Shown piece after piece: positions 1,991-57,256 of a stretch of DNA of 64,000 bases (position 1 is the stretch's first letter; every line of letters starts with the position of its first letter). Source of the stretch: a virus. The stretch lies in IMG/VR virus record IMGVR_UViG_3300032315_001715, positions 310,001 through 374,000 of that record. One strand, written 5' to 3'. The position numbers and the translations under genes are program-made. The notes under the pieces are model-generated. The model was given only the letters and a program-made list of their open reading frames with translations. It was not told the origin of the DNA and made no database searches.

Positions 1991-2386
1991 TTAATAGACC
2001 AAACAAGCAGCTTGCAGGATCCCAATGGCCATGCTGCCACCACCCAGCATCACGGCATTGGCCATGCACTCGTCCGATGCGATCTTCTTTTGCAGGTTAC
2101 CAAACACAAAGTTCAGCAGTTCCCACATGCCTAGCTGAACTACCAGGCTGATGGCGCACCAAACGAGCTTGTCCGTCCATCCGGTGCTGTGGATGATCAC
2201 GCTGCTCATGGCGATCACCATGCCCACGGCAGTGCCTAGATAGCTGATGGCCGCCGCGGTGTTGCCCTCGCGGATCAGCTTGATCTCGTCATACGGCGTG
2301 ACCAGCTTGTATGCGTAAAGTGCCAGTGCCAACATGGCAATGCTGGAAAGGAAATAAATGAGGAAATTTGGCAGTGTGCTGAGCAT
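1991..2386 (-). CDS. DUF350 inner-membrane protein (YjfL-like)
   Basis: 131 residues with about four hydrophobic segments (residues ~7-27, ~48-66, ~74-94, ~110-130). The central TAAAISYLGTAVGMVIAMSS is typical of DUF350, whose members are predicted inner-membrane proteins of unknown activity. In E. coli the yjfL gene accompanies yjfM (DUF1190) and yjfC (GSPS-like), exactly the order here. The association suggests that membrane, lipoprotein and ligase act together on an envelope or peptide substrate; this is inference. Confidence 0.85.
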   Translation of the reverse strand: MLSTLPNFLIYFLSSIAMLALALYAYKLVTPYDEIKLIREGNTAAAISYLGTAVGMVIAMSSVIIHSTGWTDKLVWCAISLVVQLGMWELLNFVFGNLQKKIASDECMANAVMLGGGSMAIGILQAACLVY

Positions 2387-2408
2387 GATTGTCTCCTTTG
2401 TGCTCGTT

Positions 2409-2651
2409 TTATGCCCAGGTTAGCTGGGCTAGAAAAATGTACGGTCCAGTGGTCATCAACAGTTCGTCATAGGGTTTCATGCCTAGCTTTGATGAACTAA
2501 CACGCCTGATCCACCATGATCGAACGCCCGGGCCGTGGCTACGACCTATGTTAGCTCGACACCAGGTTTTCAATGCTTGCAATTCATCACGATCATCCGG
2601 ACGAAAGACCAGCACCGGCAACCCTTGATAAGTGTCCGAATAGCTTTTCAA
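2409..2651 (-). CDS. Hypothetical protein, 80 aa
   Basis: The reading frame starts with TTG at 2651, overlapping the TGA stop of the upstream membrane protein (TTGA), and runs 80 codons. Trp/Arg-rich centre (VRSWWIRRV) with no domain I recognise. It is kept because it tiles perfectly between neighbours of the ligase operon; the non-ATG start and weak Shine-Dalgarno make the exact N terminus uncertain. Confidence 0.5.
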   Translation of the reverse strand: MKSYSDTYQGLPVLVFRPDDRDELQALKTWCRANIGRSHGPGVRSWWIRRVSSSKLGMKPYDELLMTTGPYIFLAQLTWA

Positions 2652-2836
2652 AAGAACGGCTCTCGGCGCTGCGTCGGCAGTTTCCCGCGGAATTTACGGT
2701 CAACCCATCGGCGAAATCGTCCAAGGGTTTGACCAAAAGCACGGCTTCCCATCCACATCATACCGATCGCCATGCCAAGCAACGGCGGCATCGCTAAAAA
2801 CATCGCCATTAACAACCAATTAGTCATGGCTGTCAT
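2648..2836 (-). CDS. Small membrane protein, 62 aa
   Basis: One long hydrophobic segment near the N terminus (residues ~6-29, Met/Leu-rich with GMAIGMMWMG) followed by a strongly basic tail (GRFRRWVDRKFRGK). This suggests an N-out/C-in single-pass inner-membrane peptide. Its start overlaps the end of the preceding 72-aa gene by 17 bases and its stop overlaps the following TTG start. No family recognised. Confidence 0.55.
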   Translation of the reverse strand: MTAMTNWLLMAMFLAMPPLLGMAIGMMWMGSRAFGQTLGRFRRWVDRKFRGKLPTQRREPFF

Positions 2837-3038
2837 TCCATCTGAGTATTGCTAGGGTGCGATCAAAATCACACATGGCAAAGTGCTCGGCTTGCTTTCT
2901 CAAATTTTGGTCATAAATCAGGCACAGCAACTCCGGTCGAGTCGTCTCGAGATTGCCGGCTACCTTGCTGTCGTAGACCGCATCAATTGCCCGACCTAGA
3001 TCATCATCTGACATGGCTAGCAGCCATCCATTAAGCAT
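2820..3038 (-). CDS. Hypothetical protein, 72 aa
   Basis: Its ATG overlaps the ligase stop by one base (TGATG), which indicates coupled translation directly behind DNA ligase. The product is helical-looking and mildly acidic, with two Cys and no signal or membrane segment. I do not recognise the family. The tight tiling with the ligase supports it as a real gene. Confidence 0.6.
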   Translation of the reverse strand: MLNGWLLAMSDDDLGRAIDAVYDSKVAGNLETTRPELLCLIYDQNLRKQAEHFAMCDFDRTLAILRWNDSHD

Positions 3039-4441
3039 CAGATCTTCTCCCCCGGTTCCCAGCCACGGAATTGCATGAACACCGGAAACCGCAGGCTCCA
3101 GCTATCGCCCTTTTGGCTCTTGGTTAGTGCATCTCCCTTGATTTCAACGATACGGCCCAAGACGGCGTTGCGATCAGCCCAGATCGCATCTCGCAGCTCT
3201 TCACTATAACCGCCGCCAACCGTTACCTCGACCAGCTTGCCTTGATCTGTGCCTCGGCAAATCAATCCGCCCAAAGTGTTGGCAAACTTGCTTTCAGGCT
3301 TGCCGGGTTCAAATCCAATCACTTCTAGATCAACGGTGATCCATGGCTTGATCTTTAGCCATGCATCGGTGCGCTTGGTTCGATATGTGGACGACGGGTC
3401 CTTGATCATCACGCCCTCATAGCCAGCCTCGATGGTCTCAGCGTTGAACTCCTTGAGGGCCTGTTGGCCTTCCTTGGTATTGAGATCAACCCTAAGCTTG
3501 GGTACCACGTAGATAGCACCGCTAGAAATCTCATCCAGTAATGGCTGGAATTCCACCAACGCTTCATGCCGTTGTGTTTGCGTAAGATTGCACTCTCCGG
3601 CAAGGAAATCCGCCATGGGTAAGCAATCAAACAGCGCGAGCTTGGCATCCTTGGTATCGGCCTTGCCCTTGCCTCGATTGAGCTGCTTCATCAGGGCCTG
3701 GAAGCTGCGGCTGGTCATCTCGCCGTCTAATACCATGCTACACTTGAGGCTAGGTAACAGCTTGGCTTGCATGGCTGCGATATGCTCAAAATTGGTGTTG
3801 ATGCGCCCTTCTCGAGTGTAGTGTGTGACCTCGTTGCGCTCCTTGTCGAGGAAGCTCAACACCCGCACACCGTCGAGCTTGATATCAATCAGCTTGGAGC
3901 CGATCATTTTCTTGGGATGGTCTTCGCCGTTCTTAGCCAACTGGCAGCTGAACTCCGGGATGATATAGGGTTCAGCTGCGGCGCCGTTTTTGCCCAAGAC
4001 CTTGTTGATGGTGCTGTCAGTGCAGCCGCATTTGAAATCCTTCAGCAAAACGCGGCGATAAAACCCGTTCCAATCCCGAACGTTGGCGGTATCAGATGCG
4101 GCACGCAATGCATCTCGAGCGGCATTGCCGCTGAGCTCACGGGTTTCTAGCTTGGCCGCGATCGCCTTGAAATCATTCCAGGTGAATGTGCTGGCTGGTT
4201 GTGGCGCATCGTCCTCATCGGTGATCAACGGGGCCTTTCGCACGCCATATGTGCGCAGCGCATCATACGCCATGAGAGCTCCTTCAAAGAACTCAATCAA
4301 TCCTGCATCCCAAGCTGCTTGGATGATGTGCTCCTTGTGACCACGAGCAGAGACCGATTCCAGCGCGTAGATTACATCGGCAGCGGTGAGCAGATTTAGC
4401 GAGGATGGATCAAAGTCGTCGTCGGAATGGGCATCGGCCAT
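3038..4441 (-). CDS. ATP-dependent DNA ligase, T4 gp30-like
   Basis: 467 residues, close to T4 gp30 (487). Residues ~1-175 form the helical DNA-binding region. Nucleotidyltransferase motif I is IKLDGVR with the AMP-accepting Lys188; LDGE (motif III region) follows near 240, EGVMIKD (motif IV) near 340 and WLKIKPW (motif V) near 360. The OB domain ends the protein. It seals nicks during phage DNA replication and repair. AAGGAG stands 6 bases before the ATG, and a consensus promoter lies at 4467-4494, so this is the first gene of the minus-strand operon running to the window edge. Confidence 0.95.
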   Translation of the reverse strand: MADAHSDDDFDPSSLNLLTAADVIYALESVSARGHKEHIIQAAWDAGLIEFFEGALMAYDALRTYGVRKAPLITDEDDAPQPASTFTWNDFKAIAAKLETRELSGNAARDALRAASDTANVRDWNGFYRRVLLKDFKCGCTDSTINKVLGKNGAAAEPYIIPEFSCQLAKNGEDHPKKMIGSKLIDIKLDGVRVLSFLDKERNEVTHYTREGRINTNFEHIAAMQAKLLPSLKCSMVLDGEMTSRSFQALMKQLNRGKGKADTKDAKLALFDCLPMADFLAGECNLTQTQRHEALVEFQPLLDEISSGAIYVVPKLRVDLNTKEGQQALKEFNAETIEAGYEGVMIKDPSSTYRTKRTDAWLKIKPWITVDLEVIGFEPGKPESKFANTLGGLICRGTDQGKLVEVTVGGGYSEELRDAIWADRNAVLGRIVEIKGDALTKSQKGDSWSLRFPVFMQFRGWEPGEKI

Positions 4442-4466: not shown

Positions 4467-4494
4467 ATTATAGCACGGATTGCAGCATGGTCAA
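4467..4494 (-). promoter_or_regulatory. Sigma70-like promoter for the ligase operon
   Basis: Minus strand: TTGACC, 16-base spacer ending TGC, TATAAT. The -10 box is 26 bases upstream of the ligase ATG. It has near-consensus boxes and the same extended TGC as the promoter at 1959-1986. Confidence 0.8.
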
Positions 4495-4544: not shown

Positions 4545-4990
4545 ACGCTGTGTTTGCGGTTGGCTGGGGTCATAGACCATATCTCCCCCGCGGTTAAATG
4601 GGGGAGATGTATCGTGGCTGCGTACAGGCAGTTTCCACAGACCGAATTTTCATGCTGCTTATTAAAGCGTCTGGCGGTTGTCCGGTACCAGAATCACATG
4701 CACATCTTGGATTTTTTTTAATCCAACAGCGGGGGAGCAAAGCAGGGTATTCGATCAACCTGCTTGCGCTTGATCGTTAACAACGTCAGTTAGAGCGATC
4801 CGTTTTGTCAGCCGGCTTCACCGGAGAAGATAATTTCGTGACCTCGATGCCGCCTTGATCAACTATACCGAGCTCGGGCTGGGGAGATTTATACGTTGGC
4901 ACAGCCGTGCTTCTCGGTCGCCCGCAGCGGGCATTTGTTCGCGTTCCTGACGGTAACCGTCCCTTCCGCGAGTGGATTCAGTACCACCAT
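4545..4990 (-). ncRNA. Large structured noncoding RNA, copy A
   Basis: No credible gene occupies 4442-5090. The minus strand aligns end to end with the plus strand of 54875-55330. Invariant blocks in the same order include GCGGAAGG, AGGAACGCGAACAA, GAAGCACGGCTGTGCC, ATCTTCTCCGGTGA, GGATCGCTCTA, TAACGATCA, AGATGTGCAT, CTGGTACCGG and CAACCGCCAG. Between them are hairpins whose arms differ but still pair: here GACGG/CCGTC, GCCCG/CGGGC, GGATT/AATCC, GCTT/AAGC and CTCCCCC/GGGGGAG. The best-conserved core is 4575-4987 (413 nt). Compensatory changes in at least four stems argue for a functional RNA rather than a protein. The class is not recognised. It lies between a terminator (5058-5083) and the ligase promoter, so it is probably an independent transcript. 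Confidence 0.8.
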
Positions 4991-5057
4991 GTCATGTCTG
5001 CTATATGAAGTTTGTGATGTTACCGGCATTTGAGGTTTGGTTACAAATGATAAAATA

Positions 5058-5083
5058 GAAAGCGGGCCAAAAGGCCCGCTTTC
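5058..5083 (-). terminator. Rho-independent terminator behind the 289-aa gene
   Basis: Perfect 11-bp inverted repeat (GAAAGCGGGCC / GGCCCGCTTTC) with a 4-base AAAA loop, 8 bases after the minus-strand stop at 5091. The flanks give a T-rich tail in both directions, so it may work bidirectionally. Confidence 0.85.
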
Positions 5084-5090
5084 TTTTGGT

Positions 5091-5960
5091 TTATCCTTTC
5101 CAGTCGGATGGAGGTTTGCATCCGCTGGCATCATATGCAGGAAATGGATTAGCCTGGTATGACACATCACGCTTCTTTCGAAGCCTGATGCCCATTTTCT
5201 CCAGGTTCTTGGCCGTGTTGTAATACATGGCCAGCACAGCATCCGGTTGGTTTGGATTAGCCCTGCTGAACTGCGTGGTCTGCGTTTGCCACGTCGTGGC
5301 ATTGCCGAATCCGGTGCCAACATCCTGTGTTACCGGGCTGCTGGTTAGGCTTTGCTGCATTGCGGCGCCGATGATGCCGCCACTGGTCTTGACCTCGGCA
5401 GAATTCATGGGCATTGCCGCAGCAGCAGATTTTACCATGCTGGCATTGATGCGCCGATCGCTTGATTCGGTTAACGCTGCGCCCACCCATGTGTTATTGA
5501 TGGATGATATCTGTGACCCGTAACCTATAAGTCCTCGCGTCATGTAGTAGTCTTCGTGCCGTGTTGGTTCGACATATTCCGAAAATACCATCGCACCAAT
5601 GACCCCGGTATTGGAAGTGCTGCCGCCTATGGCATTAACATAGCTGTCCCTGCTGCGGCTGAAGAAGAACTCCGCAGCTTCTTGGTTGCTGATCTTCCAC
5701 CCAGGAATGCTGATGGTATCCTGTGCATTGACAACGTATCCTTGGCTGCTTGGACCGGCAGGCTTGCCTTCCAGTATGTCAAGTCCGTCAACACTCAGTA
5801 TGAACAATGCACGCGATTGCGTGTTGTTCCTGATATCGATGGTATAGTTGTTGCCTTCCCTGCCTTCGATCCAGACAGCACCATTGTGATAGTATTCATC
5901 GGCAGGGGTCCGACCCCTAGGACGCACGATCATCTCGTAGCGCCTTGCGTTGTCTAGCAT
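5091..5960 (-). CDS. Hypothetical virion/surface-type protein, 289 aa
   Basis: Globular protein without signal or membrane segments. The N-terminal half contains a pattern I have seen in phage and bacterial proteins of unknown role (WIEGREGNNYTIDIRNN ... VLSVDGLDILEGKPA ... GYVV ... ISIPGW), probably a beta-sandwich. The C-terminal half is Ser/Thr/Gln-rich. It follows the VWA-domain gene 11 bases downstream with an AAGGAG-type ribosome site and ends at a strong terminator, so the two form a small operon. A structural or cell-surface role is a guess. Confidence 0.7.
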   Translation of the reverse strand: MLDNARRYEMIVRPRGRTPADEYYHNGAVWIEGREGNNYTIDIRNNTQSRALFILSVDGLDILEGKPAGPSSQGYVVNAQDTISIPGWKISNQEAAEFFFSRSRDSYVNAIGGSTSNTGVIGAMVFSEYVEPTRHEDYYMTRGLIGYGSQISSINNTWVGAALTESSDRRINASMVKSAAAAMPMNSAEVKTSGGIIGAAMQQSLTSSPVTQDVGTGFGNATTWQTQTTQFSRANPNQPDAVLAMYYNTAKNLEKMGIRLRKKRDVSYQANPFPAYDASGCKPPSDWKG

Positions 5961-11050: not shown

Positions 11051-11125
11051 GCTTTGCTGTGCTGGTGGACAGCCGGAGGCCTCTAAAACCTCGCAGTGAT
11101 GGTTCAATTCCGTCGCAGAGCACCA
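11051..11125 (+). tRNA. tRNA with CUA anticodon (amber-decoding), first
   Basis: 75 nt with encoded CCA. Acceptor GCTTTGC/GCAGAGC (one G-T pair), discriminator A, T stem GATGG/CCGTC with loop TTCAATT. The D arm has only three good pairs and unusual bases at 14 and 21. The anticodon arm has four pairs (GAGG/CCTC), a C-A mismatch at 31-39, and loop CTCTAAA, giving T33, anticodon CTA and A37. This would decode UAG. The amino acid cannot be deduced safely. Confidence 0.75.
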
Positions 11126-11130
11126 AGTTT

Positions 11131-11206
11131 GCTTCCATAGTTCAGTGGTCAGAACGGAGACCTCTAAATTCTCTTGTCGCAGGTTCGAATCCTGCTGGAA
11201 GCGCCA
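11131..11206 (+). tRNA. tRNA with CUA anticodon (amber-decoding), second
   Basis: 76 nt with encoded CCA. Perfect acceptor GCTTCCA/TGGAAGC, discriminator G, D stem GTTC/GAAC, T stem GCAGG/CCTGC with TTCGAAT. The anticodon arm has GAGA/TCTC plus a C-T mismatch at 31-39 and loop CTCTAAA (T33, CTA, A37), the same loop as its neighbour although the bodies differ. It is a well-formed cloverleaf and better supported than the first. It would read UAG codons. Confidence 0.85.
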
Positions 11207-55333: not shown

Positions 55334-57256
55334 ATGACGCAGGTAAATACCACACAAACAAATATCCCATCTGCGGAGCTCCGTGCAATGACTGATTTTT
55401 TCAAACCAACCAATCGACCTTCCAATCTGCATGAGACCCTGCAATACAGCAACGTTGGTCTTGCTGAAATGCGTGTTGCAGCAATGGCTGGTCCAGATGC
55501 TCCGCTGCATGTGTTCGTGGACAATACTGAACCCATGCCGGTGACGCTGGGATCAGAAACCATAACCATCATAGGTAACATCGCCGTACCCACCACGGTG
55601 AATGTTACATCCACGCCCACCGATCCCGTGCATGTGCATCTAACCGAGGTTGGATCCAGTGGGTTGCTCGACGTGGCTTATCTACCGGTTGGGCAATCTA
55701 CCTCACCATGGATCGTAGTTGGCAATGTGAACATAGCCACCACCAATGGTGGTATTGAGGTCAACAACGACACGGGTAATCCGTTGCGCATCATCGGCAA
55801 TGTCAACACCACGGTCATTAGCACGGTTTCTGTCACACAGGGAACCTCTCCTTGGGTGGTGATCGGCAACACCAACATCACCAATACACCTACCGTTGCG
55901 CTATCAAGCAACGCGGTCACGGCTACGCAGGGAACATCTCCTTGGGTGATGTCAGGCAACGTGAATGCCAGCATCACGGGCACGGTGACAACGACCGTCG
56001 TGGCAGGTGCCACGGATGCGTTTGGTAGGTTGAGGACCTCTGATGGGTTCACCCTGGGAGACTACAAGCATACATATGGAATTGATCCGAATTTCAGGGA
56101 CACCCTTATTAACGGCGGTACCGTCACCCACATACCCAACCAAGCAGCCGCAAGGCTTGCCACGAGCAACAACGTGGCCAGCCGTGCCATACACCAGACC
56201 AAGATGTACCACAACTACATGCCCGGTAAGAGCCAATTGATCGAAAGCACCATCAACTTTTACGAGGCCACGGCCAACGTGACCAAGCGCACGGGCTATT
56301 TCGACGATCTCAACGGCATCTACTTTGAGCAGACCGGTATCGGCGAGCTGGCATTTGTGATAAGGACCAACACCAGTGGCACTCCCAGCGATGTCCGACG
56401 GGTTACGCAATCCCAGTGGAACCAAAATACCTGCAACACCGCGATCGCGGGCACGTCAACCGACGGGTCTAACTACGGGGTATTTGGTACATGGAACCTG
56501 GATATCACCAAGACGCAGATATTCTGGACCGACTTCCAGTGGTTGGGCGTTGGGCGCGTGCGTTGTGGGTTCATCCACAACGGTGAGACCGTCGTAGCAC
56601 ATGAGTTCTACAACAGCAACAACCTACCAGTGGTGTACATGGCCAATCCAAATCTGCCCATTCGCTGTGAGATATTGAACACCGGTGTCACCGCAGGAGC
56701 GTTCTTTGACCAGATATGCTCCACGGTGATATCCGAGGGCGGATATTCGGAAAGTGGGATAGACTTTAGTATCAACTCTGGTACAACAGGTCAAGCAGTG
56801 ACCCTCGCCAACGGGGTGTATCCCATACTGGCCTGGAGGTTGAAGAACACGTTCAGGGGCTATCCTAACCGCGTGGTGGTTCGTCCCGGAAACATGAACA
56901 TCTATGCCGAAAACCGTCCTGCTTACTGGACGCTGATCAAGCTGGATAGCCTGAGCAACATAACCCTTGGTAGCAGCACCTGGACCAGCGCCGACGACGA
57001 CTCTGCCGTGGAATACAACCTCACCGCCACGGCATTCACCGGCGGCGACAGAATGGATGGAGGCTTACTGGGAACCACCAGCCCAGGCGGCAGGGGCACT
57101 GGTGTTGCTCCTATCAATAATCCTAGCTTGGCCAAGAAGAACTTCATCGCACAGAACCAGGATTCAACCAATAGCGAGATATATGTCCTGTGTGCCCAAG
57201 CAATTGGCGGCACGACCACGGTTTGGTGTGACGTTCAGTGGCGCGAGATCTACTAG
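55334..57256 (+). CDS. Large virion/fibre protein, 640 aa
   Basis: N-terminal ~45 residues helical, then repeats of a beta motif (SPWIVVGNVNI, TQGTSPWVVIGNTNI, TQGTSPWVMSGNVNA) up to ~215, then a ~420-residue globular beta-rich domain (KHTYGIDPNFRDTLINGGTV ... AYWTLIKLDSLSNITLGSSTW). This is similar in layout to phage neck or tail decorations with repeated stalks. It starts directly after ncRNA copy B; no clear Shine-Dalgarno is seen, so the RNA might affect its translation. Stop is TAG. Confidence 0.75.
   Translation: MTQVNTTQTNIPSAELRAMTDFFKPTNRPSNLHETLQYSNVGLAEMRVAAMAGPDAPLHVFVDNTEPMPVTLGSETITIIGNIAVPTTVNVTSTPTDPVHVHLTEVGSSGLLDVAYLPVGQSTSPWIVVGNVNIATTNGGIEVNNDTGNPLRIIGNVNTTVISTVSVTQGTSPWVVIGNTNITNTPTVALSSNAVTATQGTSPWVMSGNVNASITGTVTTTVVAGATDAFGRLRTSDGFTLGDYKHTYGIDPNFRDTLINGGTVTHIPNQAAARLATSNNVASRAIHQTKMYHNYMPGKSQLIESTINFYEATANVTKRTGYFDDLNGIYFEQTGIGELAFVIRTNTSGTPSDVRRVTQSQWNQNTCNTAIAGTSTDGSNYGVFGTWNLDITKTQIFWTDFQWLGVGRVRCGFIHNGETVVAHEFYNSNNLPVVYMANPNLPIRCEILNTGVTAGAFFDQICSTVISEGGYSESGIDFSINSGTTGQAVTLANGVYPILAWRLKNTFRGYPNRVVVRPGNMNIYAENRPAYWTLIKLDSLSNITLGSSTWTSADDDSAVEYNLTATAFTGGDRMDGGLLGTTSPGGRGTGVAPINNPSLAKKNFIAQNQDSTNSEIYVLCAQAIGGTTTVWCDVQWREIY

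Follow-up and report, generated by a model that had tools for sequence, protein, structure and literature searches.

A 64,000-nt stretch of a jumbo-phage genome (the window; positions 310001-374000 of a 452,799-bp record, G000) very likely encodes members of a structured RNA family, here called family 1. Nine diverged members of this family are under selection for one conserved fold. At about 450 nt, family 1 is likely a previously uncatalogued large structured phage RNA, unrelated in sequence to ROOL and GOLLD. A new class of large phage RNA is a new structural target; its paralogues with copy-specific loop contacts provide a natural experiment on homotypic assembly, and an apparently unrelated RNA occupying this slot in sister phages suggests a common function open to genetic testing.

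Results

Three copies in a jumbo-phage genome

Copies A, on the minus strand, and B, on the plus strand, are 71% identical over 438 nt. The alignment of two stretches about 50 kb apart in opposite orientation, one of them near the ligase gene, had been recognized in a preliminary description of the window and held. The count of two copies given there was too low: a third copy, C, lies outside the window at G000:15339-15789 (genome 15.3-15.8 kb), and at least six more phage lineages carry relatives. The starts given there, 4990 for A and 54870 for B, were too short, with the conserved 5' strand of pseudoknot PK1 lying upstream of both, and the end at 4545 slightly overshot the conserved 3' tail of A, which stops near 4553 (Table 1).

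Based on a covariance model of the middle third of the RNA, the 452,799-bp record holds exactly three copies. Identity among them is 66-69%, and in an own-genome BLAST copy A retrieves B at E = 2e-38 and C at 7e-68. As A, B, and C cluster together on the tree, apart from the homologues of other phages, they were likely produced by apparently old duplications within this lineage. By terminase, the nearest cultivated relatives are the jumbo phages Phosso of Sinorhizobium (469 kb, 51% identity) and Atu_ph07 of Agrobacterium (490 kb, 49%), which places the virus among jumbo phages lacking any close cultivated relative.

Table 1. Coordinates of the family 1 RNA, its helices and pseudoknots (copy A), and neighboring features in the window.
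Feature	Position	Strand	Basis or remark
RNA copy A, whole conserved element	4553..5001 (5' end 5001)	-	alignment and structure, nine members
RNA copy B, whole conserved element	54860..55319	+	alignment and structure, nine members
P1 hairpin (GGTGG/CCACT)	4971..4988	-	family helix 2
P2: CGCG/CGCG and GACGG/CCGTC around invariant purine-rich internal loop GAAGG/AGGAA	4940..4970	-	
P3 (TGCCC/GGGCG)	4919..4933	-	family helix 5
P4 (CCGAG/CTCGG) enclosing P5 (GGCTG/CAGCC)	4868..4917	-	family helices 6, 7
P6 (TGATC/GGTCA)	4839..4861	-	pairs in all nine members
P7 and P8 (CCGGT/GCCGG; GATCG/CGATC with TAAC/GTTA)	4772..4824	-	helices 10-12
P9 (AAGCAGG/CCTGCTT)	4740..4765	-	
P10-P13 module with PK2	4651..4728	-	family helices 15-19
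P15/P14 and terminal hairpin P16 (CTCCCC/GGGGAG)	4583..4639	-	
Conserved 3' tail (ATATGGTC ... CCAACCGCAAA)	4553..4582	-	conserved in nine members
PK1: GCAG (5001-4998) with P3 loop CTGC (4927-4924)	4924..5001	-	5 covarying family pairs
PK2: TGT (4728-4726) with ACA (4681-4679)	within 4651..4728	-	
PK3: TGCC (4901-4898, P5 loop) with GGCA (4851-4848, P6 loop)	4848..4901	-	family helix 8
PK4: P9 loop ATCGAA (4755-4750) with TTCGGT (4646-4641)	4641..4755	-	5 covarying pairs
ATP-dependent DNA ligase gene, syntenic neighbor	3038..4441	-	Pfam PF01068
289-aa gene upstream of copy A, syntenic neighbor	5091..5960	-	used for finding relatives
Virion structural protein gene downstream of copy B	55334..57256	+	phrog_1645
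Terminator-like hairpin of gene upstream of A	5057..5084	-	12 pairs, then ATTTTATCAT
Sigma-70-like ligase promoter, downstream of A	4467..4494	-	TTGACC-16-TATAAT, 11/12 consensus, TG-extended (extended -10)

Relatives of the RNA

Six more distinct members, all in uncultivated phage contigs (L135, L133, L191, L193, L205, and L204), were recovered with exact patterns and profile HMMs and by looking for the 289-aa gene that lies upstream of copy A. These and the three copies in G000 make up the nine-member set; L132, nearly identical to L133, was counted with it. The first exact pattern used (GGAACGCGAACAAA) returned 120 loci, mostly by chance. Two degenerate patterns about 90 nt apart both recovered the same 15 loci in IMG/VR, suggesting the family is likely well sampled there at that pattern depth.

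Outside these contigs, blastn gave no match in INPHARED phages (queries A and L205) or in plasmids (query L205), and two patterns found none in 84,980 prokaryote genomes, a search that does not exclude diverged members. In the phages Phosso, Atu_ph07, and PA5oct, the best covariance-model hit, at 16.4 bits (E 0.18), was not convincing. Likewise, the literature searched, which did not extend to large computational catalogues and supplements, holds no report of the family 1 RNA, and it is possible that parts of it already stand unnamed in some computational catalogue.

Covariation supports one fold

One structure of 22 helices and 106 bp, including four pseudoknots, fits the nine members. With the strands matched by hand, 99.0% of cells pair, versus 83.1% when the strands are taken from different members, and 54 base pairs are always paired and show a double change (tree-null mean 4.8, maximum 11, in 500 simulations). 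In a plain MAFFT alignment, 93.2% of cells are paired and 58 pairs are changed on both sides; shuffled alignments average 27 such pairs (0 of 500 reach 58) and sliding the columns by 1-3 leaves 9-15. RNAalifold predicted 103 pairs from five members, 33 with double changes, and 88 pairs from all nine, 37 with double changes.

The 22 helices were picked by inspecting the same alignment, so the curated covariation counts are somewhat optimistic. An unsupervised stem search of the nine aligned members is for this reason the safer result, and it agrees with the curated set, recovering nested and crossing helices alike. The automatic stem finder returned 9 stems with at least three covarying base pairs, against a mean of 1.0 and a maximum of 3 in 60 tree-evolved alignments; three of its stems have five covarying pairs, a number reached by none in the null alignments. 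Stability of single-sequence folding is only moderate for A and B (z of -1.7 and -2.2), but z reaches -3.4 for L135.

The cleanest example of covariation is P6, which pairs in nine of nine members with different sequences: TGATC/GGTCA, ACAGC/GCTGT, TCGTC/GGCGA, TGACC/GGTCA, CAACC/GGTTG, TTGTC/GACAA, TAACC/GGTTA, CAATC/GATTG, and CTGCC/GGCAG. Two pairings were not retained. A closing helix between the 5' end and a GGTC at the 3' end, predicted by RNAalifold from five sequences, is unsupported by further members, and TTGAT/ATCAA was set aside as an alternative pairing that competes with P8b and P13. Protein coding was also rejected, as no reading frame is open across members.

Most of what the preliminary description had read from sequence alone is borne out by this larger set. 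Three of the hairpins it listed as changed on both arms between A and B are P2b (GACGG/CCGTC versus GTTGG/CCAAC), P13 (GCTT/AAGC versus GACC/GGTC), and P10 (GGATT/AATCC versus GGACC/GGTCC), and further homologues agree with each. The fourth (GCCCG/CGGGC versus GGATG/CATCC) corresponds to P3 and held only in part: copy B is better supported as CGGAT/ATTCG, leaving CCATC in the loop for a pseudoknot. The reading as a structured RNA held, with covariation across nine members far above shuffled, slid, and tree-based nulls. So did the decision not to assign the element to a known class: four members searched against Rfam gave no match even at E<=5, and over the whole window only tRNA reached the gathering score. 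The reported absence of tmRNA and RNase P features held as well. No tRNA-like domain or tag frame of a tmRNA was seen, ARAGORN finds just two tRNAs in the window, and neither a tmRNA nor an RNase P RNA covariance model in Rfam is matched. Of the outcomes named beforehand as refuting, namely an Rfam class on the one hand and a lack of significant covariation or a conserved ORF on the other, neither occurred.

Long invariant blocks lie in single-stranded regions or internal loops: GGAAGGG/CAGGAAC, GATGTRC, and the CCAACCAACCGCAAA tail. These could be protein sites, as would be expected if the RNA were a ribonucleoprotein scaffold or cofactor that binds a dedicated phage protein in the manner of OLE instead of forming an RNA-only particle. 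However, no dedicated protein gene is always adjacent to the RNA; among the neighboring genes, the ligase alone turns up repeatedly, near A-type copies, and it is missing beside B and C. An RNP scaffold is thus unlikely.

Pseudoknots and copy-specific pairing

PK1 joins the very 5' end of the RNA (GATGA and variants) to the P3 loop, and in PK4 the P9 loop pairs with a strand lying about 100 nt farther downstream; for both, the tree-null P is <0.001. PK2, between a strand before P10 and the P12 loop, has a tree-null P of about 0.01. PK3, between the P5 and P6 loops, is the weakest (P = 0.008 for pairing and 0.15 for double changes).

For PK1, 4, 5, and 5 of 5 positions pair within A, B, and C, respectively, and 2-3 pair across copies. 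For PK4, the counts are 6, 5, and 6 of 6 within copies and 1-5 across them. Given that these strands pair within copies and less well between them, the sequences imply that PK1 or PK4, if intermolecular, would be mainly homotypic. The strands of PK2 and PK3 would also pair between copies.

A stable position among changing neighbors

Next to the ligase gene, the RNA has kept a single ancestral position, although the genes around it otherwise vary. Copy A holds this slot, common to its relatives. An oxidoreductase gene separates the RNA from the ligase in L135 and L193, and in L205 the upstream 289-aa gene, whose product has no match in Pfam or PHROG, is missing. Copies B and C precede genes other than the ligase.

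The position of A and most relatives directly upstream of the ligase gene raises the possibility of a cis-acting leader or regulator of the downstream gene, such as a riboswitch-like 5' UTR or an attenuator. Copy B, too, stops near a gene start, about 15 nt ahead of one possible start of the virion gene (55334); by eye, a start at 55388, preceded by GGAG, is possible instead. Nevertheless, a leader is very unlikely for the family. The ligase has a sigma-70-like site of its own 3' of copy A, and a TTGACA...TATAGT-like site can be seen in L133. A gene intervenes in two relatives, A, B, and C precede different genes, leaving no constant downstream gene, and 450 nt with four pseudoknots is larger than usual leaders, with no match in Rfam. 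Given the changing neighbors, the terminator-like hairpin of the upstream gene, and the promoter-like site of the ligase, the RNA is likely free-standing and trans-acting, with its function, transcription, and oligomeric state inferred; no transcript has been seen. For copy B alone, a leader role remains possible because it ends so close to the virion gene.

The same position of copy B, directly upstream of a virion structural gene, could fit a role in packaging or assembly like that of phi29 pRNA, for which abundance late in infection would be expected. This too is very unlikely, as the RNA is much longer than pRNA, its fold is unlike, and copy A adjoins a DNA-repair gene. No T4-type headful-packaging phage is known to use a packaging RNA.

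No promoter common to the copies was recognized, nor a terminator 3' of the RNA; the transcription unit is accordingly only inferred. The motif AAGATGA, conserved just 5' of P1, was considered as a common phage promoter and rejected, being the 5' strand of PK1. Sequence right after the 3' end of the RNA diverges between members. Such divergent sequence, in a structured multi-copy RNA, would suit a guide or scaffold RNA of a phage RNA-guided nuclease (omega RNA or tracrRNA-like). That explanation is rated very unlikely on partial grounds: no nuclease gene is adjacent, and PF07282 (the TnpB/Cas12f zinc-ribbon), the one nuclease family searched with controls that worked, is absent from six phage records including G000. 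A search for PF18541 (RuvC_III) was empty, but so was its control.

Elsewhere in the window, two adjacent tRNAs with CUA anticodons, labeled tRNA-Pyl by ARAGORN, lie at 11051-11206 (+). TAG terminates only 9 of 69 stop-free stretches of at least 150 codons, and these two may be amber-suppressor tRNAs of the jumbo phage. The window also carries a NAD-salvage pair (51466-54387, +), encoding a nicotinamide phosphoribosyltransferase and an adenylyltransferase/NUDIX protein, and a glutathionylspermidine-synthase-like phage gene (174-1367, -; PF03738).

An endonuclease-like gene inserted in the RNA

In L132 (L132:1500-2820), an ORF at 2098-2748 (+) that matches phrog_15526 lies inside the RNA gene; by eye, we take it to be of the GIY-YIG type. 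The same phrog matches an L193 protein that scores as a homing endonuclease. The ORF is flanked on one side by a remnant of the 5' domain and on the other by a complete second 5' domain that continues into the remainder of the RNA; L133 and L134 have a shorter form without the ORF. In the remnant, the P2 strand TGCG cannot fully pair with the downstream CCCA, whereas the inner TGGG can; for PK1, the inner strand AGTGA can pair with TCACT of its own loop. Judging by these sequences, the RNA would resemble a homing target that was kept functional.

Three dispersed copies in both orientations, and a homing-endonuclease-like ORF inside one RNA gene, might also be explained by a mobile or self-splicing element, or the relic of one (group I/II intron-like, or an IStron), that spread to three places. 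This is very unlikely. The copies are intergenic and interrupt no gene, Rfam has no group I or II intron match, and A, B, and C are only 66-69% identical and so not recently mobile, with one copy in a fixed ancestral slot. The L132 ORF is in an insert with the RNA rebuilt behind it, making the RNA look like the target and not the vehicle.

In a separate observation, the ligase of L133, L132, L191, and L193 is split after KLDG by an intein-like stretch with a nested endonuclease-like ORF, with the host sequence picking up again after ...VHN CRIISILDK.

Family 2, a second RNA in the slot of copy A

Two further records, from the sister phages G001 (518 kb) and G002 (158 kb), encode a homologue of the 289-aa gene (44-46% identical) but lack family 1. 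There, the homologue is followed, in the slot of copy A, by a different gene-free stretch of about 550 nt, family 2. Each record has two family 2 copies (L212-L215), the second downstream of a 349-aa gene like the L204 endonuclease (phrog_8420). Across records and copies, family 2 is 68-83% identical to the G002 reference, and structure prediction on the four sequences gave 109 pairs, of which 26 show double changes. Family 2 has no Rfam match above the gathering score and no INPHARED match by blastn.

Both families share a genomic slot, are gene-free and multi-copy, and have a covarying structure. They differ in predicted fold and have no detectable sequence similarity; profile HMMs, BLAST, and a partial covariance model did not detect homology. 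As unrelated structured RNAs, each multi-copy, share the slot, one may have been replaced by another with a common role, a possibility that rests on few genomes and is best taken as a lead. It is also possible, on a bolder reading, that jumbo phages of this group reserve the slot and swap unrelated ornate RNAs through it; duplicated within genomes as orthogonal paralogues, these RNAs would form free-standing particles that share a role in infection.

In Phosso, a gene-free interval upstream of the threonyl-tRNA synthetase (PV764938.1, about 402.0-402.6 kb; L233:6190-6830) lies a few genes after the same pair of vWA-like and 289-aa genes. It contains the T-arm-like sequences GGTTCGAATCC and GGTTCAAGTCC and has no ARAGORN or Rfam match.

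Discussion

Proposed role of the family 1 RNA

We propose that the family 1 RNA gene would be transcribed as its own unit during infection and that the RNA would act in trans. It may work, much as ROOL and GOLLD do, as a compact RNA particle or an RNA-based scaffold, and it is probably monomeric or a homotypic oligomer; oligomerization is suggested by analogy. A particle function like that of ROOL or GOLLD is the reading we favor, if only by a narrow margin. The three paralogues in G000 would not be expected to mix through PK1 or PK4 contacts, as these strands pair within a copy and poorly between copies. In our opinion, multiple copies may either raise dosage or give separate particles that are not interchangeable.

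Comparison with known large RNAs

Few very large structured phage RNAs are known, and none has a known function. Phage-encoded phi29 pRNA is structured and builds a ring through loop-loop contacts; it is far shorter than family 1, has another fold, and is part of a packaging motor. OLE is, like family 1, large, highly structured, and unexplained. However, OLE, at about 600 nt, belongs to a bacterial ribonucleoprotein (PMC12054373), and family 1 does not match the OLE model in Rfam. In ICP1, a Vibrio phage without tRNAs, RNA-seq found the most abundant transcript to be a noncoding RNA of about 800 nt (PMC7567579). Here, as in family 1, a gene-free phage interval away from tRNAs would be the source of a large RNA; the ICP1 RNA was compared only via the INPHARED blastn with A and L205, without a match.

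ROOL and GOLLD were shown in 2025 to assemble into RNA-only nanocages (PMC12286853). GOLLD rises during lysis, and ROOL, though non-essential, is as abundant as 16S rRNA in one strain (PMC12286853). With GOLLD, family 1 shares being a large, ornate phage RNA of unknown function, but GOLLD is often >800 nt (PMC12286853), and family 1 has neither a match to its Rfam model nor a linkage to tRNAs. With ROOL, family 1 shares a large size, a phage origin, many helices, multiple pseudoknots, and the lack of a known partner (PMC12286853). Unlike family 1, ROOL env-120 is 659 nt long (PMC12286853), and ROOL often lies near tRNA islands; 18 of the 19 loci searched here have no tRNA, and near copy A there are just two, about 6 kb away. 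Family 1 further differs in having three paralogues in one genome and no match to the ROOL model. The comparison with these two RNAs, raised before any homologues were known, is thus apt in kind, while class membership is not met. Given the absence of a model match, the different length, and the lack of tRNA linkage, family 1 is likely a class of its own, similar in kind to ROOL and GOLLD yet separate from both.
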